From Meiothermus ruber DSM 1279 (lineage in GTDB: Bacteria > Deinococcota > Deinococci > Deinococcales > Thermaceae), in contig NC_013946.1 of the NCBI RefSeq assembly GCF_000024425.1, positions 620,001-684,000 of the forward strand: 64,000 nucleotides of DNA. Direction: 5' to 3'. The notes under the pieces are model-generated. The model searched no databases, had not been told where the DNA came from, and was given only the letters and a program-made list of their open reading frames with translations. The translations under genes were made by a program, and so were the position numbers. Of the stretch, positions 6,155-22,734 are shown piece by piece (the first letter of the stretch is position 1; each line of letters starts with the position of its first letter).

Positions 6155-6158
6155 TTGC

Positions 6159-6815
6159 TTAGACCCCCAATGTATATCCCCCTGGCTGGGTGGCGATTAC
6201 GCTATCCCCTAGCTTTTCCCTCAGGCGATGCACATAGACCCGCAGGATGCGGTGGCCCGACTTGGTGTTAGGGAATACCTTGCTGATCAACTCGTCCACT
6301 CCAAAAACCCTCTCGGGGTGCAGGGCTAGGCGCTCGAGCAATACAAATTCTTTGTCTGAAAGTGAGACGGGTTGTTGGTTCCAGCACACCTTACGGCTGG
6401 CAAACTCTATGCGTAGGGGGCCCCGCTCGAGGACATTTTGGCGCAAGGTGCTGCCTCTTCGCAGCAACGCTCGGATGCGTGCCAAAAGCTCTTCTAGGGA
6501 GAAAGGCTTTACCAGGTAGTCGTCTCCACCCAAATCCAGTCCTAGCACCCGATCCTCCACGGTATCGCGTGCGGTTAGAAACAGGATAGCCCCTCCAAAC
6601 CCATCTCTGCGAAGTTGCCGGGCTAAACGAAAGCCCGTATCTTCTCCTTCCGGCAGCATCACATCCAGGGCTATTAGATCGGGCTCGAGCTTGTCCACCA
6701 ACGCCTGGGCCTGGGACAGGTTGTCGGCCCATTCCACCTCGTATCGTTCCCGCTGTAGCAAGGCTAGCAGCGGCCCTGCTAGATCAGCATTGTCTTCAAC
6801 CAATAAAATTCGCAT
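6159..6815 (-). CDS. OmpR/PhoB-family response regulator
   Basis: The protein has 218 residues. The receiver domain (1-115) has the acidic pair E7/D8, the phosphorylation site D51 in ALDVMLPEG, Thr in FLTARD and Lys in LVKPFSLEEL. A C-terminal winged-helix DNA-binding domain (about 125-215) ends in GHRILRVYVHRLREKLG, the usual recognition-helix region. It pairs with the kinase that begins 4 nt downstream. A TAGAAT -10 box lies at 6831-6836 on the minus strand, giving a very short leader. The regulated genes are not evident; the exported Asn/Gly-rich protein in the same operon is the obvious first candidate. Confidence 0.93.
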   Translation of the reverse strand: MRILLVEDNADLAGPLLALLQRERYEVEWADNLSQAQALVDKLEPDLIALDVMLPEGEDTGFRLARQLRRDGFGGAILFLTARDTVEDRVLGLDLGGDDYLVKPFSLEELLARIRALLRRGSTLRQNVLERGPLRIEFASRKVCWNQQPVSLSDKEFVLLERLALHPERVFGVDELISKVFPNTKSGHRILRVYVHRLREKLGDSVIATQPGGYTLGV

Positions 6816-7752: not shown

Positions 7753-7773
7753 CACCCCCCAAATGGGGGGGTG
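7753..7773. repeat. Hairpin CACCCCCC/GGGGGGTG upstream of set A
   Basis: Perfect 8-bp inverted repeat with a 5-nt loop, lying between the divergent trmI and pseudopilin genes. A shorter hairpin of the same type (ACCCCC, 4-nt loop, GGGGGT) is found at 12473-12488 upstream of pseudopilin set B. Confidence 0.5.
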
Positions 7774-7985: not shown

Positions 7986-8492
7986 GTGAAAAAGGCGACC
8001 GGGCTGAGCGTAATTGAGTTGATATTAGTTGTCTCGATTCTGGGCATCCTGATGGTGCTTGGAGGAGGATGGTTTAGCTCGGACAGGATCCGGGTCAATC
8101 AGGCTGCCCAGATTTTAAGCGCCGACGTAACCCGTGCCCGCCTCGAGGCCCTTCGGCGAAACGTCCCGGTGGGAATTCGCTTCGATTTTAGCTCTGGGGC
8201 CAACTTCTATCAAATAATGGCCGATGTCGACCAAAATGGCTTGGATAGCAGCGACCCCGTGATCAACCGTATCCAGTTTGGAGCTGGCGAGTACGCCCGA
8301 ATTGTAGGCAGGCTGCGTCAGTGCACGGTTGCCGATGCGGCAGCGGCGGCCAGTGCCGAGATCGTTTTCGATGCCCGTGGGGTGTACCAACTCGCTACCA
8401 GCCGAACCGTAGAGTTATCCATCGGCTCCTATAGCCGCTTTGTCAACATCAATCAACAGGGCCGTGCCCAGATTCGGACGGCCTGTCCATAG
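7986..8492 (+). CDS. GspH/FimT-like minor pseudopilin, set A
   Basis: The 168-residue protein starts with a type IV prepilin leader: MKKATG, cleavage before LSVIELILVVSILGIL, with Glu at +5 of the mature protein. A hydrophobic helix of about 20 residues and a beta-rich C-terminal domain follow, with two Cys (RLRQCTV and RTACP) that could form a disulfide. It would be processed by the PilD prepilin peptidase and sit at the tip of a type IV pilus. It is the first gene of a four-gene set matching, in order and type, the Thermus pilA1-pilA2-pilA3-comZ competence locus; by that analogy it is PilA1-like. The start is GTG, with AGGGGA upstream. Confidence 0.82.
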   Translation: MKKATGLSVIELILVVSILGILMVLGGGWFSSDRIRVNQAAQILSADVTRARLEALRRNVPVGIRFDFSSGANFYQIMADVDQNGLDSSDPVINRIQFGAGEYARIVGRLRQCTVADAAAAASAEIVFDARGVYQLATSRTVELSIGSYSRFVNINQQGRAQIRTACP

Positions 8493-8500
8493 GAGCAGCC

Positions 8501-8935
8501 ATGCAAAACAGAGGAATCACCTTGGTAGAACTCCTGATAGCCCTGGCCGTGCTGGGTGTGGCCTTTGGGGTGTTGGTGTTCTCGCAGGTTACCAACTACC
8601 GCGCTACCGCCAGGGCAGGGGTGGTGAGCCAGGTCAAAGATACTGCCACGCAAATTCTGGAAAACCAGGTAGGGGTAGTGTTGGCCAACTTCACCCGTTA
8701 CTACAACGGCTGCCCCACCGGTAGTGAAACCGGCTGCTATGGCTCCGGCTTCCTCATCAACAGCGGAATTGATGAAGGTCTGGATGGTGAAGGACAAATC
8801 CTAATCCAATCGTCAGCGACCAGCCAGGGCATCACCATCAACCTGGCGACAAAAGTTTCGTGCTACGACGGCTTTGCTTCCCGTACGGCTGCTATCGGGG
8901 TGGGTAGCCTCGAGCCCTGTCCCAGGCCCAACTAG
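8501..8935 (+). CDS. PilV/GspI-like minor pseudopilin, set A
   Basis: This is a 144-residue prepilin with leader MQNRG and mature start ITLVELLIALAVLGVAFG; Glu is at +5. After the helix comes a small domain containing the four-Cys region NGCPTGSETGCYG and CYDGF...EPCPRPN, which would allow two disulfides. The position (second in the set, 8 nt after the first gene) and size correspond to PilA2 of Thermus or GspI of type II secretion. In the homologous tip complexes this subunit contacts the GspJ- and GspK-type proteins encoded downstream. The start ATG is preceded by AGGAG. Confidence 0.82.
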   Translation: MQNRGITLVELLIALAVLGVAFGVLVFSQVTNYRATARAGVVSQVKDTATQILENQVGVVLANFTRYYNGCPTGSETGCYGSGFLINSGIDEGLDGEGQILIQSSATSQGITINLATKVSCYDGFASRTAAIGVGSLEPCPRPN

Positions 8936-8944
8936 GAGTTGGCT

Positions 8945-9622
8945 ATGCGTATCCATGGTTTTACAATCCTCGAGCTGCTGGTGGTTCTGGCTATTTTCAC
9001 CGGGGTTTTGACCATCGCTACGCGCTTCCTGGTCAGCCAGTCGCAGGATACCCGCATCATTCAGGAGCGCGACGAAGTGCAAGACCGGGCCCGTCTGGTG
9101 TTACAGATGGTGAGCCAGGACTTGATTCTGGCGGGCTCGAGCCGTTACGTTCGCAACAACGAGGTGCGCTTCGATGAAGCCAACTGGGTCTCCTGTGCGC
9201 CCGGAACCCCCTGTCTTTCCGGCACCGACCACAGCGAGCGCGATACCTTCGTTACCCGCTACCACACCAGCCTTTACCCCAGTGGCCAGGAGCGCCGCTC
9301 GGTGGGTTATACCTTCGATGGAACCACGCTTCTGCGGGCCGATGTGCCTTGCAGCCAGGCCCCTACCGGTTTGATAGCTGCCAGTAGTTACCGCGAACTT
9401 GCTCCTAACATTACCCAGCTCAACATTCGCTATGTTTGCGGCGACTCCGCAGCTACCGAGGTGGGCCTGCCCAGCGGATGCACGGTGGTGACCAATCCCA
9501 CCGAACGGTTTGTGCGGGCTGCGCTGGTCACCGTTACGGCTACTTCGCCCCAGGGAACCTATGCCTACACCATCGCCCAGCGGGTGCCGATTCGCAACCT
9601 GAAAACCGACGAGGTGCTGTGA
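8945..9622 (+). CDS. PilW/GspJ-like minor pseudopilin, set A
   Basis: The prepilin has 225 residues: leader MRIHG, then FTILELLVVLAIFTGVL with Glu+5. The region after the helix (QSQDTRIIQERDEVQDRARLVLQMVSQDLILAG) is the typical PilW/GspJ alpha segment, followed by a beta domain with several Cys. The ATG at 8945 is preceded by AGGAG and gives the usual short leader; an in-frame TTG two codons upstream is less likely. It overlaps the start of the next gene by one base (TGATG). By order it corresponds to PilA3 of the Thermus competence locus. Confidence 0.82.
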   Translation: MRIHGFTILELLVVLAIFTGVLTIATRFLVSQSQDTRIIQERDEVQDRARLVLQMVSQDLILAGSSRYVRNNEVRFDEANWVSCAPGTPCLSGTDHSERDTFVTRYHTSLYPSGQERRSVGYTFDGTTLLRADVPCSQAPTGLIAASSYRELAPNITQLNIRYVCGDSAATEVGLPSGCTVVTNPTERFVRAALVTVTATSPQGTYAYTIAQRVPIRNLKTDEVL

Positions 9623-11292
9623 TGAGACAACCTCGAGGAATTGCCCTAGTCGTCACGTTGGCTATCCTGGTAGCAGTTGCCTTGCTGGCTTTTGCTACCT
9701 CGATTACCACCATGATCAGCCAGTGGAGCGCCCGCAACGATCGCGGGGCAACCGAAGCCTATTACGTGGCCGAGACCGGTCTGCAGCAATGGAAGACCCT
9801 TCTTTTCCAGGCCTACCGCTGGCAGCTCTACCAGACGATCGATCGCGCGGCAGGAAGCCGCACCCCCACCCGCAGCGAGTGCGGCAATGTGCTGGCGGGC
9901 GGGGTGGACTGGAACCGTAACGGAACCATCGAAAGCAACGAAACCCTGCCTGCTACCCGCACCGGAACTGTTCCGATGGGTGCTGGTGTCGGCACCTACA
10001 CCATTACGATCGCGCAAGACCCCACCCGCCCACGCTTCATGCTGGTGCGTTCGGTGGGTCGCTATGGCGGCTCCCAGGCCATCGCCCAGGCCACCTTCGA
10101 CCTTTCCAACACCGGCCCCTGGAACTATGCCATCTTTAGCGGACGTGGGGCTTCCAATAAGCACCTTAATGGGGGCGCCATCGTTAGGGGCGGGTTGTAT
10201 GTGCAGGGCGACCCTGGAAATCCCGACAAAGAGGTAATTGGCTCTACCGGCAATTTTGCAATGCTCAACGAGTACAACTATAGCTCCGATGCGGTTTTGA
10301 GCAACCGTCTTAACAGCGATATGCGCAGCCTCTCTAACCTGTGTGCGACGTTACGGGTGCAGTATGGTCGGGTAGAGGTCAGCGGAAGCTCGAGCTATGG
10401 AACACCAAACAATAAGCTTCTAGGTGCCTATGTAGGGGATTCAGTAAACGACATTTACGGCAATACCTCTGATGTATGTGCTAATAACCGAGGTATCTGC
10501 ACCGATGATCGTGGGGCCTTTGATCTTCCTCCGCCCCTGGCCCCTCGCTTCCCCGAGTTTAACACCACCCCCTGTACCAGCGATCCCAGCCGAACCTGGG
10601 CGGCCTGTGTGCGGGACGAGGCAGCTACCGGCGGCCTTCGCATCACCAGCAGTGCGGTTCTTTTCCCTGTAGGTGCTATTCCAACCAGCCCACTATCATG
10701 CCTGCTGGGCAATCTCCTGAATGGAGGCGAGCTACGTTTTGGCGGTAGCAGTGTGGACTGCCGTTATACCCTAAATGGCAAGACAGGTGGTTTCCGCTAC
10801 GTAAGCGGTAATCCGGGTATGCTGGAGATTTATGGAACTTTGCATACCAGTGGCATCGACGTGAGGTTCAGTAATGCGATTAACTACCGCGCTTTTAACT
10901 TTGCCGACCCTACCGAGCGCAACGCCTCAATATTTGTGGAAGGGGGCAGCATCTACATCCAGGGTGACTTGCTGCCCGATGCCAGCTCGGCCACCTTTCC
11001 CGATCAGGTACTGGGGTTGCTGGCTCAGAACAACATCGAGCAGCTTACCAATAACGCCATGGGGATCTTTTATGCTGGTAATCGCTTCCGTACCCAGCAA
11101 GGCCAGCGCACACTGGGTACCGTGGTATCCAACGAGTTTTGCACTACCAGTGCAGGTGGCAATCAGTGTAACGCGGGTCAACAAGCTGAAGTGACGTATA
11201 TTCCTACCATGGGCAACATCCCGGTGGCAGCCCGAATCCCTGAGGACACCGTTATTGCCTCCTTTAAGGTGATGTCCTACGAACGGCGCTAA
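9622..11292 (+). CDS. comZ: ComZ/PilX/GspK-like pilus tip protein, set A
   Basis: This 556-residue protein has a prepilin leader (MRQPRG) followed by IALVVTLAILVAVALLAFAT; there is no Glu at +5, as in GspK-type subunits. The segment GATEAYYVAETGLQQW is the PilX_N signature. From about residue 165 (WNYAIFSGRGASNKHLNGG) a long beta-rich region begins that looks like a solenoid insertion (repeated short beta units with GGLYVQGD and GGSIYIQGD). Thermus ComZ has this kind of plan and is placed at the pilus tip, where it takes part in DNA uptake. Position, size and neighbours support ComZ, but sequence identity was not measured. Confidence 0.72.
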   Translation: MRQPRGIALVVTLAILVAVALLAFATSITTMISQWSARNDRGATEAYYVAETGLQQWKTLLFQAYRWQLYQTIDRAAGSRTPTRSECGNVLAGGVDWNRNGTIESNETLPATRTGTVPMGAGVGTYTITIAQDPTRPRFMLVRSVGRYGGSQAIAQATFDLSNTGPWNYAIFSGRGASNKHLNGGAIVRGGLYVQGDPGNPDKEVIGSTGNFAMLNEYNYSSDAVLSNRLNSDMRSLSNLCATLRVQYGRVEVSGSSSYGTPNNKLLGAYVGDSVNDIYGNTSDVCANNRGICTDDRGAFDLPPPLAPRFPEFNTTPCTSDPSRTWAACVRDEAATGGLRITSSAVLFPVGAIPTSPLSCLLGNLLNGGELRFGGSSVDCRYTLNGKTGGFRYVSGNPGMLEIYGTLHTSGIDVRFSNAINYRAFNFADPTERNASIFVEGGSIYIQGDLLPDASSATFPDQVLGLLAQNNIEQLTNNAMGIFYAGNRFRTQQGQRTLGTVVSNEFCTTSAGGNQCNAGQQAEVTYIPTMGNIPVAARIPEDTVIASFKVMSYERR

Positions 11293-11325
11293 TAGTAGAA
11301 ACCACCTACCACATAAATGGGCCAG

Positions 11326-11331
11326 TAGACT
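11326..11331 (+). promoter_or_regulatory. -10 box TAGACT, leaderless promoter of the set A kinase
   Basis: TAGACT ends 6 nt before the ATG at 11338 and there is no Shine-Dalgarno sequence, so the kinase probably has its own leaderless transcript and does not depend on read-through from comZ. The -35 region is not clear. Confidence 0.5.
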
Positions 11332-11337
11332 GGAATT

Positions 11338-12327
11338 ATGCCGCTCAAGCGCCAACTGGCCTGGGTGATCGGACTACTGGCCTTTATTCCCAACCTGGTT
11401 ATAGTTCTGACTTTCTGGGCTTCTTTTCAGGGAAGATCGCTGGAAACTTCGTTGTTTTTGCTGGTTTGGCTGTCGGTGTTGGCTCTGACTGCAGCCGGGG
11501 TGGGTTATTTCTTGGCTAACACCCTTATGCACCCAATCGACGAGCTGACCCGTAGCCTCCACTACCTGCGGGGAACTGGCCGCACCCTGGCCGAGCTTTC
11601 GCTGCCCTCGCCCAAGCAGCCACCCCCTGCCGAAATTGCCCAGTTGCGCGAAGGCTTTGAAGAGGTACTCGATCATCTGCGTGAGCTGTTGGAGGCGCGT
11701 GAAGCTACCTACGCGGCCCTGACCCACGATCTCAAGACCCCTTTGTTGGCTAGCCTGCGGGCGCTGGAGTATCTAGAAGAAGCCGACAAAATTGGGCCGG
11801 AAAAGCGAAAAGAGCTGCTGCGTAACTTGCGAGAGGAATTGAGCCGAAGCTACCTGCTGGTAGAAAACCTGCTCACGGCCAGCCGCCTCGAGGCCCGGCG
11901 CATCCAGCCGGAAAACCTCAACCTGCGCTCCGTGCTGGAGGACTTCCGCCTGCGCTATGCCCAGCAGGCTCAAAAACGCGGTCTGCGCCTGGAGATAGAG
12001 GGGGCTGGGCAGGCCAGGGCCGAGCGACTCTTGCTCGAACGGGCGCTGGCTAATCTGGTCGAAAACGCGTTGCGTCACGCCCAAAGCCGGGTGGTGCTGC
12101 GGGCGGGGGATGGCTGGCTCGAGGTCGAGGACGACGGGCCGGGGCTGCCTGACAATCTGGAAAACCTTACCCAGCCTTTTCGCAGCCAGCGCCTGCGCGG
12201 GGTGCGGGCGGGCAGTGCAGGGCTGGGGCTATACGTGGCCCGACGGGTGGCCGAGGTGCACGGCGGGCGGCTGGAAAACCTGGCCCTGCCGGGACAGGGA
12301 ACCCGGTTGCGCATCCGGTTGGCCTAA
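11338..12327 (+). CDS. Sensor histidine kinase between pseudopilin sets A and B
   Basis: The 329-residue protein has two N-terminal membrane helices (about 8-28 and 38-60) with only a very short external loop. A HAMP-like linker follows, then a HisKA domain with His130 in ALTHDLKTPLLASL, and a HATPase domain with N box LVENALRHA, G1 VEDDGPGLPD and G2 AGLGLYVARRVAEVHGG. The missing sensor domain suggests that it senses a membrane or cytoplasmic signal. No response regulator is adjacent; the nearest is the NarL-type regulator at 16340, beyond pseudopilin set B. HisKA kinases more often pair with OmpR-type regulators, so the pairing is unproven. Confidence 0.9.
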   Translation: MPLKRQLAWVIGLLAFIPNLVIVLTFWASFQGRSLETSLFLLVWLSVLALTAAGVGYFLANTLMHPIDELTRSLHYLRGTGRTLAELSLPSPKQPPPAEIAQLREGFEEVLDHLRELLEAREATYAALTHDLKTPLLASLRALEYLEEADKIGPEKRKELLRNLREELSRSYLLVENLLTASRLEARRIQPENLNLRSVLEDFRLRYAQQAQKRGLRLEIEGAGQARAERLLLERALANLVENALRHAQSRVVLRAGDGWLEVEDDGPGLPDNLENLTQPFRSQRLRGVRAGSAGLGLYVARRVAEVHGGRLENLALPGQGTRLRIRLA

Positions 12328-12439
12328 AAGGCTCCTTGCAGCCAGCATGTGATATTTGACCATGGGCGGCGGGTACCTTGGAAAGAAGCGGGCAACCCTA
12401 TCCAGAGCGAATAAAGGCTCGTTTAAGGCTGTTTTGCGC

Positions 12440-12471
12440 GGTGCATTAACAACTTATTAACGTAACGCACC
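12440..12471. promoter_or_regulatory. Inverted repeat upstream of set B sharing an 11-mer with set A
   Basis: GGTGCATTA and TAACGCACC form 9-nt arms with one mismatch around a 14-nt centre. The left part, GTGCATTAACA (12441-12451), is the exact reverse complement of TGTTAATGCAC at 7833-7843. A GC hairpin (ACCCCC/GGGGGT, 12473-12488) follows directly. This is a candidate operator for coordinated control of the two pseudopilin operons. Confidence 0.45.
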
Positions 12472-12525
12472 AACCCCCATCTGGGGGTACTTGAATTCAA
12501 ACGGCCCGTCCAAACTCGAGGCGGT

Positions 12526-12996
12526 ATGGCGAGGTGTTCGCAGGCTAGCAAGCAGATCAGAACGCCGGGGGGCTTTACCCTGCTGGAGCTCATCGTGGTG
12601 ATGGCCATCCTGGGGGTAGCAGCCGGCCTTGGCATCGCCCAGATACGCAACATTGGGCAGCGACAACAGGCTTTGGCAACGGTGGATCAAATCCGTCAGC
12701 TTTTCTGGCAGGGCGCGACTGCGGCAGCCAGCCGGGGCGGCACCAACTTCTTGTTGGTGCGCAGCGGCAACACCCTGCAGGTGCAGTCCCAGGTGGATGG
12801 AAGCGTGCTGCGCAGCGTGACCCTGCCGAATGGGGTGAGTTGTAGCCTAAGCAACGGCACACTGGCTACCTTTACTTCCCCTGGAAAAGTAATTTTTTCT
12901 AGCAGCTTTCCGGCCAACCGCCAGTTCACCATATCCGCTGCCGGGCAGACCTTTACCCTGACGGCCACCCTGATCGGGGAGGTGCGACGCCAATGA
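12526..12996 (+). CDS. GspH/FimT-like minor pseudopilin, set B
   Basis: This prepilin of 156 residues has a rather long leader (about 16 residues, ending RTPGG) followed by FTLLELIVVMAILGVAAG with Glu+5. The remaining domain of about 115 residues has the GspH/FimT look (helix QRQQALATVDQIRQLFWQGATAAASRG, then beta strands). It opens the second pseudopilin operon and overlaps the next gene by ATGA. The start ATG is preceded by CGAGGCGG. No specific substrate or function is known. Confidence 0.8.
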   Translation: MARCSQASKQIRTPGGFTLLELIVVMAILGVAAGLGIAQIRNIGQRQQALATVDQIRQLFWQGATAAASRGGTNFLLVRSGNTLQVQSQVDGSVLRSVTLPNGVSCSLSNGTLATFTSPGKVIFSSSFPANRQFTISAAGQTFTLTATLIGEVRRQ

Positions 12997-13469
12997 GAAG
13001 CCGAGGACTGACCCTTATTGAGGTGGTGGTGGCGGCGGGCGCGCTGGCGATTGTACTGGGAATCTTTACCACCTTGCTGGTGGGTAACATGCGGCAGACC
13101 AGCATTGTAGGGGGGCGGGCCCAGGCCAATCAGCTAGGGCTTTTTTTGGGTCGGCAGATCCTCGAGGCCGACGAACGGGCTGTTCCAGACGAGGGTGAAA
13201 GCCTCACCTGGGGCTATGGTCAGCTCACCAACGCCACCAGTGGCTTTCCCAGCCTTACCAGCGAGCAGCAGTTCGCCAACCTGGCCCTGTACCGCGCCAG
13301 TGTCACCAACCAGGGAGCCCCTTCCTGGGCCAGCAGCAACTGGCAGATTAGCCAGTACCGCATCGAGATCTGCTGGCGTAGTCCGGAGGGGGAGCAGTGC
13401 GTCAACCAGAGCATCGTTGGCCCTTCGCCGGCCCAGGTGGGAACCGAGATTAACAGCGGTATCAACTAA
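12993..13469 (+). CDS. PilV/GspI-like minor pseudopilin, set B
   Basis: The 158-residue prepilin has leader MRSRG and mature N-terminus LTLIEVVVAAGALAIVLG (Glu+5). The C-terminal domain has one Cys pair (EICWRSPEGEQCVNQ). The start codon overlaps the previous stop (ATGA), which implies translational coupling. It matches the second gene of set A in size and position, although the leader-distal sequence differs clearly, as expected for tip subunits with different specificities. Confidence 0.8.
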   Translation: MRSRGLTLIEVVVAAGALAIVLGIFTTLLVGNMRQTSIVGGRAQANQLGLFLGRQILEADERAVPDEGESLTWGYGQLTNATSGFPSLTSEQQFANLALYRASVTNQGAPSWASSNWQISQYRIEICWRSPEGEQCVNQSIVGPSPAQVGTEINSGIN

Positions 13470-13480
13470 AGGAGGTTACT

Positions 13481-14347
13481 TTGCGTCCTCGAGGTTTCAC
13501 AGTCCTGGAATTGCTGCTGGCCCTGCTGGTGCTGGTGATCGTGATGACGCTGGCTTTCAACACCAGCATCCAGGGGTTGCAGCTTAACCAGTCCAACGAG
13601 GCGGTGAGCTCGGCCCAGAACAAAGCCCGACGGGTGCTGGAGGTGCTGAGCCAGGATTTGCGCACGGCGGCCTTCGCTATCGTGACCCACACCCCCTTCA
13701 ACAGCAATGCCACCAGCATCTCTTTTGCCCAGGTGGCGGGGGGGGCTGGTTACGCGGTGAGCGCTGTGGCTGGCAACAGCCTGGCGATTGTGAGCAACTC
13801 CCCCACCATCGCCACCGAAATTCCGGTGGGCAGCCGGCTGGTTGTGATCGACGGCAACGGCAACGCAGTGCTCACCCGTACCACCGGACTGCCCACGCTG
13901 AGCGGTATCAATACCTACACCATCCCCACCACCTGCAGCAACCTGCCGGTTACCGCCACCTCCCAGACCCTGGCCTCGGTGGTTAGCTTGCTGGGCTATA
14001 GCTACGATGCAACCAACCGCAAGCTGGTCTACCAGGCCCTGGGCGATGCGACAACGACCGATGTGGCCTACGATGTGAGCAATTTCCGCATCGATTACGT
14101 CTACCAGCGGCGCAATGGTTCTTCGGTTAGCGAAGAGCGCAACCCCAGCGGCTACCTGGTGAGCGGCCGGGCGCAGCCCTACTTCACCAGCAGCGGATCG
14201 GAATATACGTTGCGTCGGTTGCAGTTCACCCTGGGGGTTCAGCTACCCTTGCGCGGGCGCAACGTGGAGCGAACCTACACCGGGCAGGTGGATATGATCA
14301 ACAACCTCTACTATCAGGCCAAGGTGGTGAGCATATGCAACCCATGA
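13481..14347 (+). CDS. PilW/GspJ-like minor pseudopilin, set B
   Basis: This prepilin of 288 residues starts at TTG with an excellent ribosome binding site (AAGGAGG, 6 nt upstream). Leader MRPRG is followed by FTVLELLLALLVLVIVMTLA (Glu+5), then the GspJ-type segment QNKARRVLEVLSQDLRTAAF. The larger C-terminal part is beta-rich and ends in QVDMINNLYYQAKVVSICNP. Its last codons overlap the start of the PilX-like gene, so the two are translationally coupled. Confidence 0.8.
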   Translation: MRPRGFTVLELLLALLVLVIVMTLAFNTSIQGLQLNQSNEAVSSAQNKARRVLEVLSQDLRTAAFAIVTHTPFNSNATSISFAQVAGGAGYAVSAVAGNSLAIVSNSPTIATEIPVGSRLVVIDGNGNAVLTRTTGLPTLSGINTYTIPTTCSNLPVTATSQTLASVVSLLGYSYDATNRKLVYQALGDATTTDVAYDVSNFRIDYVYQRRNGSSVSEERNPSGYLVSGRAQPYFTSSGSEYTLRRLQFTLGVQLPLRGRNVERTYTGQVDMINNLYYQAKVVSICNP

Positions 14348-16248
14348 GAGATCGCCAGGGCATCGCGATTGTGGTAGCCCTGACCATTATTCTGCTGTTG
14401 AGCGTGGTAAGCACCTTAATGTTCACACGTTCCATCAACGACTTGCGTACCAGCCGGGATAACACGGCCATGGCGCAGGCCATCAACCTGGCCCGGGGCG
14501 GGGCGGTGGCGGCCACGGCCCTGCTGTCCAACGAGGTGCGGGCCAGCCTCGAGAGCATCGTGCAATCGGCAGACCCCAGCATCGGCGGCATCAGCACCAG
14601 CGACATCTGGTACTACGGCGGCAACGCCACCCAGCCCATCGCCTCCACGGTGGCGGCCCGCCTGGCTGTGCTGGCCAACACCCTCCAGACCAGTCTTAAT
14701 GCGGCCATCTGCAACCAGAACTTTGCACCGGATGGTTCGGGCGCCACGGTGCGGGTGCGCGTGCACTTTACCACCGCCCCGGCCTGCGGCCAGCCCTTTC
14801 CTGCTTCGGCCCAGCTACCATCCGGGTATGTGGTAGACGACGACAACAACCCAGCCACGCCCTTAACCCGCCAGGTGCAGGGGTACGCCCTGCCCTACGT
14901 GATGGTGGTCACGGCCTCTCCCGGCACCCCCTACCAGCGCAACGTGATGGTGCAGGGTGAGTACCGCTTCTTGCTAAAAAACGGCAGCTTTGCTCGCTAC
15001 GCGCTGTTTACCAACCGACACCGTACCCGCTCCAATAGCTCGGTCTGGTTTACCAGCAACACCCTGTTCGATGGGCCGGTGCACACCAACGAGCGCTTTA
15101 ACTTCTCCTTCAATCCCTGGTTTGGCGGTTATGTGACCAGCGCGGGCTGCACCAATGCCGGGGCCAGCAGTTGTGCTGGCTCTATCAGCCCTGGTGCGTT
15201 TTTTGGTGCGGGCAACAACACCACCTTTTTATCCCCCAGTCAGATGACCAACCCCAACGCCCCCTCCTGGACCAGCGGTGGCATTACCCACGCCCCGGTG
15301 TTTGAGGGCAACCCCCGGGTGAACTGGCAGGAGCCGTTTATCCCCATGCCGGATAACAACCAGAACCAGCGCAGCGCGGCGCAGACGGGGGGTCTATACT
15401 TTAACTCCGACATTGCCCGGCTCACCCTGTACGCAGGGGATGACACTGGAACGCCGCCCACCTGCAACGCTTCGGGGGTTTGTACGCCGGCCACCTCGCC
15501 CTACCAGTACATCGAGGTCTGCCTGACAACAGCCTGCACAGGGAACAACCGGCTGCTATACCGCTACGATGCCAGCGGGGCGCTCTACCGCTACAACGGA
15601 AGCTGGCCCGGCGTGCTGGTGCGGGCGGGCTTCAACGGCATGATCTTTGCCGATGGAAGCATCAACAACCTCACCGGCCCAGCCCGTTCCGATGCCAGCA
15701 ACCCCAACACCGCCCCCCCAGCGCTGGCTAGTTTTGCGCAGATTACCGTAGCCAACGCTGGTAGCGGTGAGAATATCCGAATCCAGGGTGACCTTAAGTA
15801 CCAGAGCCCGGCCTGCAGCGGTACGCCAACCCGGAGCGGCAACACCGTGACGCGGGCCACCTGCAATAACCTCTCCGCCGACAATATCCTGGGGGTGTAT
15901 AGCCAGGACGGGGATATTCTGCTGGGCAACGGCACCAACAGCTCCTTGCAGGATCTGACCATTCACGGGGTGCTGATGACATCGAGGGGCGAGGTGGCGG
16001 TGCAGAACTACAACAGCATCTCTCCGCGTGGTTCCATCCGCTTGCAGGGGGGGATTATCCAGTACACCTACGGGGCCTTCGGGCAGTTCAACAGCTCCAC
16101 AGGCCAGATGATTCAGGGCTATGCTCGCCAGTTCACCTACGACCCCCGGATGCAAGACCGGGCCCCGCCCTTCTTCCCGACCACCGGGGTGGTGCAGGTG
16201 AGCGTAGCCACCCCCCTTAGCTTTGGCCAGCGCGAGCAGGTGTACTAG
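14335..16248 (+). CDS. PilX/GspK-like large tip protein, set B
   Basis: The 637-residue protein has leader MQPMRDRQG and helix IAIVVALTIILLLSVVSTLMFT, without Glu+5, as in GspK. The segment AMAQAINLARGGAVAATALL corresponds to the PilX_N region. At about residue 222 FARYALFTNRHRTRSNS starts the long beta-rich region, at the same place as NYAIFSGRG in the set A protein; later segments (SINNLTG, NIRIQGDLKY, GDILLGNG) look like beta-solenoid turns. It contains about a dozen Cys, mostly in close pairs. ATG at 14344, which overlaps the previous stop, is an alternative start. Its ligand is unknown. Confidence 0.78.
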   Translation: MQPMRDRQGIAIVVALTIILLLSVVSTLMFTRSINDLRTSRDNTAMAQAINLARGGAVAATALLSNEVRASLESIVQSADPSIGGISTSDIWYYGGNATQPIASTVAARLAVLANTLQTSLNAAICNQNFAPDGSGATVRVRVHFTTAPACGQPFPASAQLPSGYVVDDDNNPATPLTRQVQGYALPYVMVVTASPGTPYQRNVMVQGEYRFLLKNGSFARYALFTNRHRTRSNSSVWFTSNTLFDGPVHTNERFNFSFNPWFGGYVTSAGCTNAGASSCAGSISPGAFFGAGNNTTFLSPSQMTNPNAPSWTSGGITHAPVFEGNPRVNWQEPFIPMPDNNQNQRSAAQTGGLYFNSDIARLTLYAGDDTGTPPTCNASGVCTPATSPYQYIEVCLTTACTGNNRLLYRYDASGALYRYNGSWPGVLVRAGFNGMIFADGSINNLTGPARSDASNPNTAPPALASFAQITVANAGSGENIRIQGDLKYQSPACSGTPTRSGNTVTRATCNNLSADNILGVYSQDGDILLGNGTNSSLQDLTIHGVLMTSRGEVAVQNYNSISPRGSIRLQGGIIQYTYGAFGQFNSSTGQMIQGYARQFTYDPRMQDRAPPFFPTTGVVQVSVATPLSFGQREQVY

Positions 16249-16261
16249 CCGGGCTTTCACG

Positions 16262-16307
16262 CTTCCACAGCTCCCCGAAAAGCAAAGGGGGCTGTGGAAG
16301 ATTTTTT
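16262..16307 (+). terminator. Strong intrinsic terminator of pseudopilin operon B
   Basis: CTTCCACAGC(t)CCCC pairs with GGGGGCTGTGGAAG across a 10-nt loop with a single bulged T, and is followed directly by ATTTTTT. It ends set B and separates it from the response regulator gene. Confidence 0.9.
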
Positions 16308-16324
16308 CTCGAGCCGTAACTTGC

Positions 16325-16330
16325 TAATCT
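16325..16330 (+). promoter_or_regulatory. -10 box TAATCT, possible leaderless promoter of the NarL-type regulator
   Basis: TAATCT lies 9 nt before the ATG at 16340, just after the set B terminator. It fits the TAnnnT pattern seen at many other starts in this window. The -35 is unclear. Confidence 0.35.
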
Positions 16331-16339
16331 GGAAGCTGG

Positions 16340-16924
16340 ATGCGCCTTTTGATTGCCGATGACCACCCTTTGTTTCGCATGGGCCTGCGTGCGGCCCTCG
16401 AGCGTGAGGGTTTTGCGGTGGTGGCCGAGGCGGGCGACGGCCAAGAAGCAGTTAAGCTGGGCCTGGAGCTATTGCCCGATGGGGTGCTGCTGGATGTGCG
16501 CATGCCCCAGATGGACGGCATTACGGCTACCCGGATGCTACGGGAGCAGCGCTACAACGGACTCATTGCCCTGCTAACCACCTTCAACGAACCCGTGCTG
16601 GTTCAGCAAGCCGCCTACGCCGGTGCCGATGCCTATTGGTCGAAAGAGCTGCCCCCGGAGGCTTTGGCTGAGCGTCTGCGCAGGCTGGGCCTGGGGCTGG
16701 AGCCCCGCCTGCGGGCCCCCGAGCTGCCCAGGTTGACCGCCCGCGAGCAAGAAGTGTTGCAGTGGATGGCGCAGGGGCTATCCACCAAAGAAATTGCCCG
16801 CCAGATGCATATTTCGCCAGAAACCGTCAAAGATCATTTATTGAGGCTGTACGAAAAGCTCGAGGCCCGCAACCGTGTGGAGGCGCTCGAGCGGGCCCGC
16901 AGCCTGGGGCTGTTGAGCGTATAG
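16340..16924 (+). CDS. NarL/FixJ-type response regulator between sets B and C
   Basis: The 194-residue protein has a receiver domain (1-115) with acidic pocket D7/D8, phosphorylation site D52 in VLLDVRMPQMDG, Thr in LLTTFNE and Lys in YWSKELPPE. A LuxR-type helix-turn-helix follows (about 132-190: LTAREQEVLQWMAQGLSTKEIARQM, then SPETVKDHLLRLYEKL). The gene sits alone between the terminator of set B and the promoter of set C. The nearby kinase at 11338-12327 is the only unpaired one in the window, so the two may form a split two-component system controlling pseudopilin expression; this is inference. Confidence 0.92.
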   Translation: MRLLIADDHPLFRMGLRAALEREGFAVVAEAGDGQEAVKLGLELLPDGVLLDVRMPQMDGITATRMLREQRYNGLIALLTTFNEPVLVQQAAYAGADAYWSKELPPEALAERLRRLGLGLEPRLRAPELPRLTAREQEVLQWMAQGLSTKEIARQMHISPETVKDHLLRLYEKLEARNRVEALERARSLGLLSV

Positions 16925-16945
16925 AGCCGCGCCCATGTGCAGGGG

Positions 16946-16976
16946 TTGGGCGCTTGCCTCAGGTAGGGCTTATAAT
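16946..16976 (+). promoter_or_regulatory. Promoter of pseudopilin set C
   Basis: A perfect -10 TATAAT (16971-16976) has a weak -35 TTGGGC (16946-16951) 19 nt upstream. The predicted start near 16983 gives a leader of about 50 nt containing GGGAGAGG before the ATG at 17033. Confidence 0.6.
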
Positions 16977-17032
16977 CTGAAGCAATTTTCGAACTTGCGG
17001 AATTTTTGGTGCTGCAATTGGGGGAGAGGTTT

Positions 17033-19138
17033 ATGTCAGATACAAGGGGCCTTGCATTGGTTTCGACGCTGGTGTTTATGTTCATTGTTATTGTGCTGGT
17101 TAGCATTGCTATGCTATCCTCCCTCAACAACCGTCGCAATGCCCAGGATGCCCTGCGCACCTCCCAGGCCCAGTTTGCTGCCGAGGCAGGGCTCGAGCGG
17201 GCCGTGGCCCGGCTGTGGCACCAGGTGCTGGCCAGTGCGACCTCCCGTAGCGTAACGGCTTATGGCGTCGAGTTAGACCGGATGGGCCTGACCAACGGCA
17301 CCACCATACCCAGCTTGTTCGGTGCTCCACAAAGCCTGGGGGACGGCTCGAGCTTTGTGGTGCAGGTCTCGCGCCAGGATGATACCCGTCCCGATCCCGA
17401 CGCCATCGTACTGACCGTGACCTCCACCGGTACCCTGGCCGACGGCACCACCCGGCGCCTGCGGCAGGTCTTCCGGGTAGATCGGGCCTACTTTCCATTC
17501 GACTACGCCCTTTTGACCAACAACGCCGAGTGCATTTTTTGCCACCTGGAGGTAAAAAGCCTGGATGCGCTGCGGGGCAACCCCAACCCCAACGACCCCA
17601 GCACCTGGTGGCGGCGGGCCAAGGTGGGGGTGCTGGAAAGCCTGATTATGCGCGACGATGAAGAAGCGGGGGTGGTGCACGGCCCGCTGGTGGCTCGAGG
17701 CACTATCAGCCGGCAGTACAGCGGTGCTATCGGCCCTTCCAGCCGCTACTACACCACCATGCGCCCCGGTGATACCCGCATTCGCTCCGCCACTCCCATC
17801 ACAACCACCCCGGCCGACTGCTCGACCCCCAGCAACTGCACCACCCCGCAAAACTTCTACTACAACTACCCCGATAGCAGCAGTCTGGCAGCGTTTGGCA
17901 ACCGCTTCCCCGATGGTGAGCTGCCCGATCGTTTTCCCCTGCCCATCCCAGATGCCAACCACAACCGGCTCATCGACGACGCTGAGTGGAACGCCGAGGT
18001 GGGCTCGAGCCTGGCCGGAACCAACGAGAGCTACAGCGCCGGCACCATCACGGCCGCCATGATCCTCAACCCCGCTGGTCGCGTCGCCTGGCCGGGCGGG
18101 AGCGCGGTGCAGACCCGAACCTCGGCCGATCTGGGCCAGAACCCCACGAATGTGCTGCTGGATGGTTCTGTCATCCCGATTGAGCTGAGCGGTACGGTGT
18201 TCATCAATGGAGACGTGGTGCTGAGGGGATTTGTTCGTGGCAACGGCACCCTTCTGGCCCGCGGCAACCTCTACGTGATGGGCGATCTGACCTACGATTG
18301 CGGTACTGGGAGTGGCCTGGTTCCCTGCGATTACAGCAACCCCAGCCGCCTACCCCAGCTCAACCTAATAGCGGGCGGCAATTTGCTGGTAGGCGACTTT
18401 ATGACCGTTCAAAGCGACATAGAAAGCCTGAGCGAAGAGCAGATGCTCAGCACCCGCTCCAACCAACCCACCATCAGCTTCTGCAGAGAAAACCCTACCG
18501 ACGCTGCCTGCTACCCGGAAGAGCGCCCGCGGCCCAACCTGGCCCTGACCGAGATAGCCAACTTCAACCGGCGGGAGTTGCAACGCTACCTGCGCGACAA
18601 TAGCTACCGGCCGCGTTTTTACACATTTGGCGAGGATCGCATCTACTTCGCCACTGGTTGCAGCCATCAACCACAAAGATATGGAGAATACAGCACCATT
18701 GCAGCGGGGGCTCGAGTCTCCTTCTGCCGTGGCGACACGATACTGAGCAGCAGCACCCTCACAGCCGAACAAGCCAGCCGCATCCTGGCCGGTGCAGTCC
18801 GCTACGAAGTGACCTCGAGCTCCTTCAACAACGCCATTCTCAAGAATCTCTGGGCCAACTCTATGAACGCCCGGGGTACCGGCCCACTCCGCACCGATGG
18901 GCTGCTTTATTCAGCCAATGCTATTTTTGGCCTTGCTCAACGCAAATATACCAAGCTGGGTGGGCGTTGGGACTTGCGGGGGGCCCTGGTGGCCGCCGAT
19001 ACCGGCATCTTGGTGCCCGGCCCCGGGGATGGCTCTTCGGGCCTAACCATCTACCACGACAGCCGCCTGCGCCCTCGAGTACCGGGGGGTCAGCAGGCCC
19101 AGCTTAGAAGGGGCGTGTGGGAGGTGGTTGGGCAGTGA
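17033..19138 (+). CDS. PilX/GspK-like large tip protein with a CXXCH motif, set C
   Basis: This 701-residue protein has leader MSDTRG, then LALVSTLVFMFIVIVLVSIAML without Glu+5, and a PilX_N segment (AQFAAEAGLERAVARLW). After PFDYALLTNN, the point where the large proteins of sets A and B enter their beta-rich part, it carries ECIFCHLEVK: Cys167, Cys170 and His171 form CXXCH, the classic site for covalent haem c attachment. The next 30 residues have WWRR and an acidic run before VHGPLVARGT. Domain polarity would put this region in the periplasm or outside, where haem is attached. Other readings are a metal site or a redox disulfide. The start ATG has GGGAGAGG upstream; an in-frame GTG at 17006 is less likely. 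Confidence 0.78.
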   Translation: MSDTRGLALVSTLVFMFIVIVLVSIAMLSSLNNRRNAQDALRTSQAQFAAEAGLERAVARLWHQVLASATSRSVTAYGVELDRMGLTNGTTIPSLFGAPQSLGDGSSFVVQVSRQDDTRPDPDAIVLTVTSTGTLADGTTRRLRQVFRVDRAYFPFDYALLTNNAECIFCHLEVKSLDALRGNPNPNDPSTWWRRAKVGVLESLIMRDDEEAGVVHGPLVARGTISRQYSGAIGPSSRYYTTMRPGDTRIRSATPITTTPADCSTPSNCTTPQNFYYNYPDSSSLAAFGNRFPDGELPDRFPLPIPDANHNRLIDDAEWNAEVGSSLAGTNESYSAGTITAAMILNPAGRVAWPGGSAVQTRTSADLGQNPTNVLLDGSVIPIELSGTVFINGDVVLRGFVRGNGTLLARGNLYVMGDLTYDCGTGSGLVPCDYSNPSRLPQLNLIAGGNLLVGDFMTVQSDIESLSEEQMLSTRSNQPTISFCRENPTDAACYPEERPRPNLALTEIANFNRRELQRYLRDNSYRPRFYTFGEDRIYFATGCSHQPQRYGEYSTIAAGARVSFCRGDTILSSSTLTAEQASRILAGAVRYEVTSSSFNNAILKNLWANSMNARGTGPLRTDGLLYSANAIFGLAQRKYTKLGGRWDLRGALVAADTGILVPGPGDGSSGLTIYHDSRLRPRVPGGQQAQLRRGVWEVVGQ

Positions 19139-19590
19139 ACGCGCCTTCACAAAAGGGCATCAGCCTGCTGGAGCTTTTGATCGCGCTGGCCGTGCTGGGC
19201 ATCCTGCTGGGGGTGGGTTTGGTCTCACTGAGCGCTTACCGACAAAGCCTGGTTATCCGCGAGGCGGCCACCCAGGTCGCGACCGAGCTCCAGAGCATCC
19301 GTCAACAAGCCCGCCGGCAATCGCTTAACTTTTCCTTTCAAGCGGTGGAGGGTGGCAACACCTACAAAGCAGGCCGTACCGCTGAACTGGCCTCCCTGCC
19401 CAGCAGATCGCTGCCCCCAGGGGTGGTTTTCCAGCGCGTCCCTGCTGGTGGGGGTGGCGTTACCTTCCTGGCCCCGTACGGCGTGGTTGACGCGGCCAAC
19501 CGCACTTTTACCCTCCGGGGGCCGGGCAACCGGGTGCTGAATGTGCACGTGGTGGGCAGTACCGGCAAGGTGGTGGTGCGTGCGCCGTAA
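19135..19590 (+). CDS. GspH/FimT-like minor pseudopilin, set C
   Basis: The prepilin has 151 residues, starting at GTG that overlaps the stop of the PilX-like gene (GTGA). The leader NAPSQKG is followed by ISLLELLIALAVLGILLG with Glu+5, then the GspH-like helix YRQSLVIREAATQVATELQ and a beta domain. It contains no Cys. In this set the large PilX-like gene comes first and the three small genes follow, the reverse of sets A and B. Confidence 0.8.
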   Translation: MNAPSQKGISLLELLIALAVLGILLGVGLVSLSAYRQSLVIREAATQVATELQSIRQQARRQSLNFSFQAVEGGNTYKAGRTAELASLPSRSLPPGVVFQRVPAGGGGVTFLAPYGVVDAANRTFTLRGPGNRVLNVHVVGSTGKVVVRAP

Positions 19591-19954
19591 GGCTTTTTCC
19601 CTGGTAGAAGTGATGGTGGCCCTGGCCATCCTCTCCATCACCATTTTGATTTTGAGTTACTTTGGCTCGAGCTTCACCCTGACCCGCAACGCCCAGATAG
19701 ACACCCAGGCCCAGGCCTTTGCCCGCAGCTACTTCGATACCCTGCGGGCCCGCTGGTCAACAAGAGCTGCTTTTGCTGCGGGGACACCGCCTTCTGTGGC
19801 CCTTCCCAGCGGCTTTAGCAACCTTACCATCGCCACCGAGGATGTTCAAACCATCGGAACCCAGGTGGTGTTGCGCCGGGTTACCCTCCAATTCACCGGC
19901 CCGCAAAACCGGCCGTACCGCTTCACCACCGAGGTGGTACACCCCCCCCAGTAG
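19580..19954 (+). CDS. PilV/GspI-like minor pseudopilin with Ala at -1, set C
   Basis: This prepilin of 124 residues starts at GTG 11 nt before the end of the preceding gene. The leader is MRRKA and the mature start is FSLVEVMVALAILSITIL (Glu+5). The residue at -1 is Ala, where nearly all prepilins, including the other eleven here, have Gly. The C-terminal domain is short (about 90 residues, beta-rich, FTTEVVHPPQ end) and lacks Cys. Alternative upstream starts in the same frame would only add residues encoded inside the previous gene. Confidence 0.76.
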   Translation: MRRKAFSLVEVMVALAILSITILILSYFGSSFTLTRNAQIDTQAQAFARSYFDTLRARWSTRAAFAAGTPPSVALPSGFSNLTIATEDVQTIGTQVVLRRVTLQFTGPQNRPYRFTTEVVHPPQ

Positions 19955-19961
19955 AGGCCTT

Positions 19962-20777
19962 ATGCGCAAGACAGGCTTTACCCTCATAGAAATGCTGATT
20001 GCGGCCGCCATTGGGGTGGTCATTCTGACTTTAATTGCCGCGGGATTGCGCAGCAGCGGTGATAGCCTGCGCTTCATACAAAACAACCAACTCCTTACCG
20101 AAGACCTGCGCAACGCTGGCAACCTGATAAGCGACTATCTGTCTGTGGCGGCTTTTGTGTACCCTCCCGGCGTGACCCTTAGCATAGGCAGCGCGGGTGG
20201 CTATAGCGTGCGCAATCCGCGCACCGGCGACAACACCTGGCAGACGGGTCTGGATCCGGTGATAGCCCTGCTCCAGCCCCCGCGAGTAGAGAATGGGGTG
20301 GAGGTGGTGAAATTCGTGATGATCTACCCGCTCAACCGGGGCTGGGTGGTCGCGCGGGCCACCGGGGCCGAGAACCCCGGCTCAGACCCTGCCAACAACG
20401 ACAAGTGGTTGCTGTACATCTACGAACGCAACCTGACGGTGGGTGGCAACCGCCTGCCCAATGGGCTACCGGCCACCATGCCCACCACCATACCGGGCAG
20501 CAGCGGCAACCTGCTGGCCGACTATGTGCAGCCGGGCGGTTTTATGGTGAGCTTTGCCGACTGCCTGAGCTTCGACGAGGAGGGTCTGGCCATCCCGGTG
20601 CCCTGCCCTTCCACCGCACCTGCACCGCTTCGGGCCGAGCACAGTGCGGCGCGGGTGCGTTTTTCGCTGCAGGGCGAGATAAGGCAGGGGGGGCGCGACG
20701 CCCGCGTGCCGGCCAGCCCCTGCGTTTCGAAGCGGCTCCCCGCAACCTGCCCCAGCGGCTTAGCGAGATTAGCCTGA
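19962..20777 (+). CDS. PilW/GspJ-like minor pseudopilin, set C
   Basis: The prepilin has 271 residues: leader MRKTG, then FTLIEMLIAAAIGVVILTLIA with Glu+5, and the GspJ segment NQLLTEDLRNAGNLISDYLS. The remaining beta domain includes one Cys pair (ADCLSF...PCPST) and a C-terminal Cys pair. A longer frame opens at 19719, but the ATG at 19962 has GAGG upstream and gives the normal five-residue leader. It is the last gene of set C and converges on lepA with one base between them. Confidence 0.8.
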   Translation: MRKTGFTLIEMLIAAAIGVVILTLIAAGLRSSGDSLRFIQNNQLLTEDLRNAGNLISDYLSVAAFVYPPGVTLSIGSAGGYSVRNPRTGDNTWQTGLDPVIALLQPPRVENGVEVVKFVMIYPLNRGWVVARATGAENPGSDPANNDKWLLYIYERNLTVGGNRLPNGLPATMPTTIPGSSGNLLADYVQPGGFMVSFADCLSFDEEGLAIPVPCPSTAPAPLRAEHSAARVRFSLQGEIRQGGRDARVPASPCVSKRLPATCPSGLARLA

Positions 20778-20778
20778 A

Positions 20779-22578
<1,800 letters not shown>

Positions 22579-22734
22579 AGCCTATCCATTGTAGCCGATG
22601 CTGCAGGAAAGTCTGTAGTTGCGGCGGGCGCTTGGCGGAATGGGCAAGAAAAAGGCGGCAGGTTGATGGTCTTGGTGAACCTGCTCGCCCTGCATTGACG
22701 CCCTCATTGGGGTTCTGTAAAGTTGAGCAGAACA

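Follow-up and report, generated by a model that had tools for sequence, protein, structure and literature searches.

Type IV pili carry out many tasks with a single machine, and the way in which a cell switches between these tasks remains under debate. This question is raised by a locus of Meiothermus ruber DSM 1279 (NC_013946.1), in which three complete quartets of minor-prepilin genes (sets A, B and C) lie side by side at positions 7986-20777 of the stretch of DNA analysed here (the window; 64,000 nucleotides, 620001-684000 of the closed 3,097,457-base genome; positions are those of the window unless marked). A histidine kinase (HK) gene stands between sets A and B and a response regulator (RR) gene between sets B and C. 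On comparing the locus across the genus, we found that the quartet between HK and RR differs in kind from one relative to the next, and we consider it reasonably probable that the region is a pilus-tip cassette locus, supplying exchangeable four-gene tips for one pilus machine. Exchangeable tips had been proposed in a preliminary description of this DNA. The proposal stood in its anatomy and evolution, while function, expression, complexes, ligands and HK/RR control are aspects that we infer; the description had missed a CXXCH motif in the large pilin of set C, the HK and RR genes between the sets, a fourth quartet (D) elsewhere in the genome and the exchange of whole cassettes.

Three prepilin quartets around a two-component pair

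Each set consists of four adjacent prepilins with a class III leader and a hydrophobic helix, occupying the FimT/GspH (H), PilV/GspI (V), PilW/GspJ (W) and PilX/GspK (X) positions, in the order H-V-W-X in sets A and B and X-H-V-W in set C. The open reading frames (ORFs) were found where the preliminary description had placed twelve prepilin-like genes in three sets, with X proteins of 556, 637 and 701 residues. The features of the locus are as follows (aa, amino acids; pLDDT, predicted local distance difference test).

7756..7769, + strand: C5-N4-G5 palindrome in the set A leader, adjoining the start of a TrmI-like gene
7986..8492, + strand: A_H, GspH/FimT-like minor prepilin (PilA1 position), 168 aa; Pfam GspH 2.6e-9
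8501..8935, + strand: A_V, PilV/GspI-position minor prepilin (PilA2 position), 144 aa; long BLAST match to B_V
8945..9622, + strand: A_W, PilW/GspJ-position minor prepilin (PilA3 position), 225 aa
9622..11292, + strand: A_X, ComZ orthologue by sequence, 556 aa, no Glu5; 6qvi E=4e-105; PilX_N
11338..12327, + strand: HK, histidine kinase; HisKA and HATPase_c
12462..12488, + strand: leader element GTAAC-N7-CCCCC-N4-GGGGG-T, before the slot cassette
12526..12996, + strand: B_H, FimT/GspH-position minor prepilin, 156 aa
12993..13469, + strand: B_V, PilV/GspI-position minor prepilin, 158 aa; long BLAST match to A_V
13481..14347, + strand: B_W, PilW/GspJ-position minor prepilin, 288 aa
14335..16248, + strand: B_X, PilX/GspK-position prepilin with DUF4900, 637 aa; PF16241 3.3e-27
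16340..16924, + strand: RR, NarL/LuxR-type response regulator; Response_reg and GerE; right edge of the exchanged slot at its start
17033..19138, + strand: C_X, PilX/GspK-position prepilin, 701 aa; PilX_N 3.6e-4 (below cut-off); AlphaFold2 (AF2) pLDDT 87
17531..17545, + strand: CXXCH codons of C_X (residues 167-171)
19117..19590, + strand: C_H, FimT/GspH-position minor prepilin, 157 aa
19580..19954, + strand: C_V, PilV/GspI-position minor prepilin, 124 aa
19962..20777, + strand: C_W, PilW/GspJ-position minor prepilin, about 271 aa

Glu5 is present in all 12 H, V and W proteins of the genome's quartets A, B, C and D and in none of the four X proteins; its absence from X is a hallmark of GspK/PilX. 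The prepilin clustering is not a matter of chance: of 15 N_methyl (PF07963) matches in the whole 3.1-Mb genome, this 13-kb stretch contains 8. Family profiles exceeded their cut-offs for A_H (GspH), A_X (PilX_N) and B_X (DUF4900), PilX_N staying below its cut-off in C_X, and the V and W proteins yielded only N-terminal motif or helix-region matches. Every match to the GspH, GspI, GspJ and GspK models in the ten proteins scanned fell under its cut-off; that of GspK (130 bits) was not reached by B_X (19.9) or C_X (12.6), and A_X gave no match. Leaders and helices had been described as alike and the later domains as strongly different, and BLAST between sets agrees for most pairs, with matches confined to leader and helix; longer matches were found for C_H/D_H, C_W/D_W, B_H/C_H, B_H/D_H, A_V/B_V and, in part, for the heads of B_X and D_X. 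At 7986-20777 the ORFs comprise the twelve prepilin genes together with HK and RR. None of them is a PilY1 gene, and PF05567 (PilY1) had no match in the genome in a search made without a positive control. Nor do they include a major pilin or an assembly ATPase, as had been noted before; such genes lie elsewhere, and their absence here is by itself weak evidence.

Replacement of whole quartets between HK and RR

To follow the locus through the genus, we surveyed 18 genomes, that of M. ruber DSM 1279 and those of 17 relatives. The usual order was lepA, set C, RR, a slot, HK, set A or nothing, and a TrmI-like gene; lepA did not adjoin C in G031, G032 and G036, and set A lay on another contig in G031. 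The HK-RR slot held a B-type quartet in 10 genomes, an F-type in 3 and a G-type in 3, and 2 genomes had no slot (HK is off the contig in G035, and the slot of G042 is divided between two contigs). In all eight cross-type pairs no DNA match was found between leader and RR, and DNA similarity resumed at most 12 bases from the RR start codon. The leader block, found in four of these pairs, ended 1 base past the palindrome in three and 13 bases past it in one; in the other four the match stopped within the last 46 bases of HK. Together, these results support the replacement of whole quartets, from about the leader palindrome to the RR start codon.

How often the slot changed was read from a tree built on two genes that lie outside the locus, on which at least four changes occurred among the 16 slots, two being the minimum if each type came once; fabF alone also gave four. 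The sister pair G034/G042 (support 100/100) holds G and F in its slots. A single-gene tree with seven slot changes was discarded as poorly resolved; 'no slot' and outgroups were counted there as a state, so that the seven is not comparable with the four. In the two genomes without a slot, HK and RR are adjacent and adjoin lepA; a single quartet follows them, of D type in G028 and of C type in G033. Two Calidithermus genomes likewise have HK-RR without a slot and a C-type quartet (HK is cut by the contig in G026), and HK adjoins RR in all four no-slot relatives read; HK-RR with one quartet is thus suggested to be the older state. C_X was matched at 63% or more in 15 of the 17 relatives (G033 has a partial match at 46%, G028 none), B_X at 82% or more in 9 and ComZ at 79% or more in 7. 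F and B can coexist, as an F_X homologue (72%; L178, G036:C40) occurs in G036, whose slot holds B.

Compared with G039 (L102), window positions 12342-22591 had a DNA identity of 95.6%, other matched blocks having 90-93%, and lepA, C_H and C_V were identical in protein. Judged from these identities, 12342-22591 looks like a recent recombination tract.

The leader element (GTAAC, 7-8 bases, C5, 4 bases, G5, T) was found in 14 of 14 slot leaders (8 B, 3 F and 3 G) out of the 16 slots, G043 being omitted because it looked identical to G039 and G035 being cut by the contig. Its role may be that of an operator, of part of a promoter or of a hairpin in the transcript. The exact C5N4G5 palindrome has two copies in the 64-kb window, in the set A leader and before set B, a number not above chance (shuffle mean 1.32; at least 2 in 40 of 100 shuffles). 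Immediately upstream of set A is a second two-component pair (4832-6815, - strand), a HAMP/HisKA kinase with an OmpR-type regulator, which is missing from the fetched stretch in several relatives.

Loss of set A and retention of the other quartets

Set A was intact in 4 of the 17 relatives (G031, G037, G041 and G042), broken in 3 and absent in 9; in G035 it was not readable at the locus, and a 36% ComZ copy lies elsewhere. The break is a transposase-like sequence (recognized by eye) in A_H in G038 and G027, and in G029 A_H and A_V are lost and A_W has a frame break. Seven of the nine genomes lacking set A have HK adjoining the TrmI-like gene, and the other two, G028 and G033, have no ComZ match. 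M. taiwanensis has no set A at this place. G040 keeps a 48-55-base A_V scar, which shows that a deletion took place there. Scored in two states (present or broken versus absent), set A changed 6 times on the two-gene tree; a three-state count of 8 scored G027 as intact, though its A_H start is replaced. The idea that set A is the core and sets B and C are spare parts was rejected, since set A is the quartet most often broken or missing in the genus.

The preliminary description had held that decay of sets B and C in related genomes would speak against its proposal. Within the genus the opposite was found, it being set A that decays: all four B genes are stop-free in each of the 9 relatives whose slot holds B, and so are the C genes in all 15 relatives, to the extent that their contigs show them (only C_X in G030; C_W is cut in G042). 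The slot genes are likewise free of stops in 15 relatives, save for a stop in F_X of G042 and with F_W of G029 read in part. The exceptions are F_X of G042 and, outside the genus, B_X of G009.

Beyond the genus, complete G-type H-V-W-X quartets were present in 8 of 8 loci read, 7 from a group, g4, that is probably Thermus and 1 from Calidithermus. The A quartet was complete in 6 of 7 loci (L124, L125, L126, L129, L130 and L132), L134 holding only a remnant. Of the 27 genomes of group g4, 11 have a ComZ match and 7 a G_X match longer than 400 residues, both occurring in one (G067), where the G-type quartet and ComZ are on separate contigs; the two look, without statistics, nearly exclusive. We rejected the notion that G-type quartets sit at the ComZ locus in g4, as no ComZ-locus neighbour appeared in 7 g4 stretches.

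X pilins with a common start and different heads

Residues 32-556 of A_X match the solved ComZ structure 6qvi (E=4e-105), in keeping with the earlier comparison of set A to the Thermus pilA1-A2-A3-comZ locus; on this sequence match, A_X is the orthologue of Thermus ComZ, a DNA-binding tip pilin. The AF2 model of C_X (pLDDT 87), built from 18 aligned sequences, was compared with 932 chains by VIA-align. ComZ came first (Z 12.2 over 354 residues, root-mean-square deviation (rmsd) 11.3 A), followed by two pilins (Z 9.6 and 6.5) and tapirin C-terminal domains (Z 6.4 and 6.2); among the 50 VIA-align matches listed, none was a cytochrome. C_X is thus predicted to look like a ComZ-type tip pilin, that is, a pilin with a large inserted beta-rich domain. 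Tapirins bind cellulose; the similarity of the model to them (Z about 6) is of a size that common arrangements also give and is only a lead.

In profile comparisons C_X and ComZ share residues 1-164 only, so that C_X does not follow ComZ along the whole protein, and a C_X profile search of the PDB up to E=1 listed no ComZ. The profile match of B_X to ComZ or C_X covers only the first 70-odd residues. Because these matches are limited to N-terminal parts, the X pilins have a common start and different heads. PDB sequence searches with B_X and C_X, and Foldseek of the C_X model against viral models, yielded nothing useful. The named relatives found through C_X are Meiothermus, including M. taiwanensis at 92%.

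A CXXCH motif in C_X and F_X

The CXXCH of C_X (residues 167-171) follows directly after the part common with ComZ. All 22 aligned sequences have it, that of the window among them, as do 17 of 17 loci of a named collection that overlaps the 22 and includes a Planctomycetota genome at 28% identity; a Deinococcus plasmid copy has it too. F_X, which is encoded in a slot cassette and is partly similar to C_X, carries CXXCH in 12 of the 12 loci fetched, further F_X matches existing beyond these. The motif was not found in A_X and B_X of the window, in D_X or in the one G_X checked.

As for a distal haem ligand, 18 sequences of C_X contained no invariant His or Met besides H171; His 63, 216, 545 and 675 are kept in 18-19 of 22 sequences, and Cys 263, 269, 423 and 432 are invariant. 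With no further invariant His or Met, the motif may serve a covalent haem, a disulfide or a metal site, and that it carries haem is, on sequence grounds, a tentative idea of which we are doubtful. If true, haem on the C_X tip pilin would be the boldest point of the locus. A wider version of this idea, which we think distinctly unlikely, is a tip-exchange locus with fixed HK/RR and leader in which C and F end in a c-type cytochrome pilin, so that a DNA-receptor tip would be swapped for a redox-active or haem-bearing one.

In Deinococcus sp. KNUC1210 a 431-kb plasmid holds a complete C-type quartet (L234) with transposase and recombinase genes on both sides; its C_X copy is annotated 'polymer-forming cytoskeletal protein'.

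Quartet D and pilus machines elsewhere in the genome

A fourth quartet, D, in the order X-H-V-W, was located at 1055.5-1060 kb of the genome (L011:485-4991; G000:C1:1055484-1059990). D_X has 913 aa with a long poly-Gly stretch, and its DUF4900 match is below the cut-off. By BLAST, D_H, D_V and D_W are closest to set C and the D_X head is closest to B_X, which suggests that X and the other three genes recombined.

The genome encodes one 885-aa ATPase nearest PilB (674.1 bits against a cut-off of 675.65), a second, 563-aa GspE/PilB-like ATPase near a small prepilin cluster (1034-1038 kb) and three PilT-family ATPases. Four quartets thus outnumber the extension motors, one PilB-like and one GspE/PilB-like, which fits one shared machine and is no proof of it. 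The small prepilin cluster (L010, G000:C1:1030000-1038000; L139) also holds the GspE/PilB-like ATPase and proteins that resemble, by eye, PilM and GspF; it is, to judge from its genes, a separate secretion-like or pilus-like system. Two neighbouring PilA-type pilins adjoin an O-antigen-ligase-like protein (named by eye) at about 882 kb (L009, G000:C1:880000-886000).

Could the quartets instead serve different machines, one of them a pilus and the others capped by GspH-I-J-K tips like those of the type II secretion system (T2SS), each for a different substrate? The same H-I-J-K core primes the T2SS, B_X and C_X have weak GspK matches, and the 1034-1038 kb cluster has a GspE/PilB-like ATPase with small prepilins. 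These prepilins, however, are that cluster's own, the listed GspH/I/J/K matches in the ten proteins are all below cut-off and C_X resembles ComZ, so that we consider this explanation unlikely.

Alternatively, the sets could be duplicate minor-pilin operons kept by drift, priming redundantly without distinct ligands, their loss or replacement being unselected. Of the 17 relatives, 12 have a damaged set A or none, one G042 contig has the stop in F_X, and in Myxococcus xanthus cluster 1 or cluster 3 alone is enough for motility, according to the part of that study covered (PMC7541494). This is nevertheless quite improbable in the light of the stop-free B genes (9 of 9) and C genes (15 of 15, as far as the contigs reach), of the CXXCH kept over deep divergence and of the mosaic make-up of quartet D, with its B-like X and C-like H, V and W, which is not a simple duplication. 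That a single tip, or the length of the shaft, combines subunits of several quartets, as three adjacent sets with similar helices might allow, is highly improbable, because the quartets travel complete (8 of 8 G-type loci), which points to specific partners.

A model of exchangeable pilus tips

We propose that the locus encodes alternative tips for one pilus machine. Each quartet probably makes up a complex that both primes a type IV pilus and forms its tip, in which H, V and W would join to the shaft and X would cap it outermost; by comparison with ComZ, GspK and M. xanthus, the quartet would prime the pilus and stay at its tip. In A_X, by homology to ComZ, and in C_X, by predicted structure, a pilin-type domain would bear a large inserted beta-rich head that touches the target, and we infer the same head-on-pilin arrangement for B_X. 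Set A would be a ComZ-type DNA-uptake tip and sets B and C putative tips for other ligands, all mounting on a pilus machine encoded elsewhere. The HK/RR pair probably chooses which tip is made, by analogy with the HsfBA phosphorelay of M. xanthus. Over evolution, whole quartets have been swapped behind the retained leader, or lost.

Several observations weigh against this model. The second GspE/PilB-like motor and its pseudopilin cluster mean that the quartets could feed different machines, and the rmsd of 11.3 A between C_X and ComZ means that the domains are either oriented differently or poorly modelled; no PDB structure matched the C_X model in Foldseek at E<=0.001, and the B_X model is poor (pLDDT 54) and gives nothing structural for set B. 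Six relatives are metagenome-assembled (G033, G035, G036, G039, G041 and G042), the two-gene tree leaves its backbone open (6 of 15 inner branches), and the HK+RR tree (16 rows, four states) requires 4 changes where 3 is the minimum, a minor conflict. The stop in F_X occurs in one of two overlapping G042 contigs, and the B_X of G009 is broken. HK is of the HisKA type, whereas the usual partners of NarL-type regulators are HisKA_3 kinases. The palindrome alone was rejected as a signature (18 versus 12 in the control, not clearly enriched), and a looser leader pattern had 5 matches in the genome, 2 of them at quartets (before B and before D), against 4 in a genome-wide control; as this pattern was written after seeing B and D, the leader element is only a lead.

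Comparison with known systems

The nearest known relative of set A is the pilA1-A2-A3-comZ locus of Thermus thermophilus, to which it corresponds gene by gene in an order that is also seen in the g4 loci. In the parts of the ComZ study covered, that protein is described as a pilin domain with an inserted beta-solenoid, with arguments for a position at the tip and for DNA binding (PMC6561018); the main text of that paper does not contain the word 'Meiothermus'. The surroundings differ: in the Thermus-like g4 loci a PilA4-like pilin follows comZ in 5 of 6 (the sixth is cut by the contig), whereas in the window HK stands there instead and the PilA-type genes are at 882 kb.

Several sets on one machine are already known from M. 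xanthus, which has three minor-pilin/PilY1 sets (PMC7541494) and the HsfBA phosphorelay, which steers two of these sets by increasing PilY1.1 and decreasing PilY1.3, interpreted by the authors as distinct tip modules (PMC9109919); several other bacteria also have multiple minor-pilin sets (PMC8833165; all three sources as far as covered). Like the present locus, M. xanthus has three four-pilin sets, one of which works with a c-type cytochrome, TfcP. Its adhesin, however, is a separate PilY1, whereas no PilY1 was found in the present locus and it is the large X pilin that bears the head; TfcP stands apart as a periplasmic protein that was not detected in pili, whereas here the CXXCH lies inside the X pilin; and the text covered describes no slot in which cassettes are replaced. 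Xylella fastidiosa has paralogous pilE/V/W/X/Y1 sets with split roles in twitching and transformation, but these lie in two regions and include PilY1, and the portion of the report covered contains no regulator-flanked exchange slot (PMC9956873). In PilB/PilC of Streptococcus sanguinis a binding domain is likewise grafted onto a minor pilin (mentioned in PMC9109919), with no mention of quartet exchange in the text covered.

Multiple sets on one machine under phosphorelay control, and paralogous sets with split roles, are thus established, the former in M. xanthus and the latter in Xylella, going by the portions of these reports covered. The locus in turn constitutes a natural experiment on how pili change their grip: between a kinase, leader and regulator that they have in common, sister species differ in one whole quartet, so that ligand and function become assignable by comparing or deleting sets. 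The parts of the literature surveyed describe no cytochrome-type minor pilin, TfcP being separate, and to our knowledge C_X would be the first cytochrome among minor pilins, should its CXXCH carry haem. As far as our searches of that literature show, what is new here is an exchange slot with a retained leader, quartets with no PilY1 at the locus whose X pilins bear several kinds of head, and a CXXCH inside a minor pilin.

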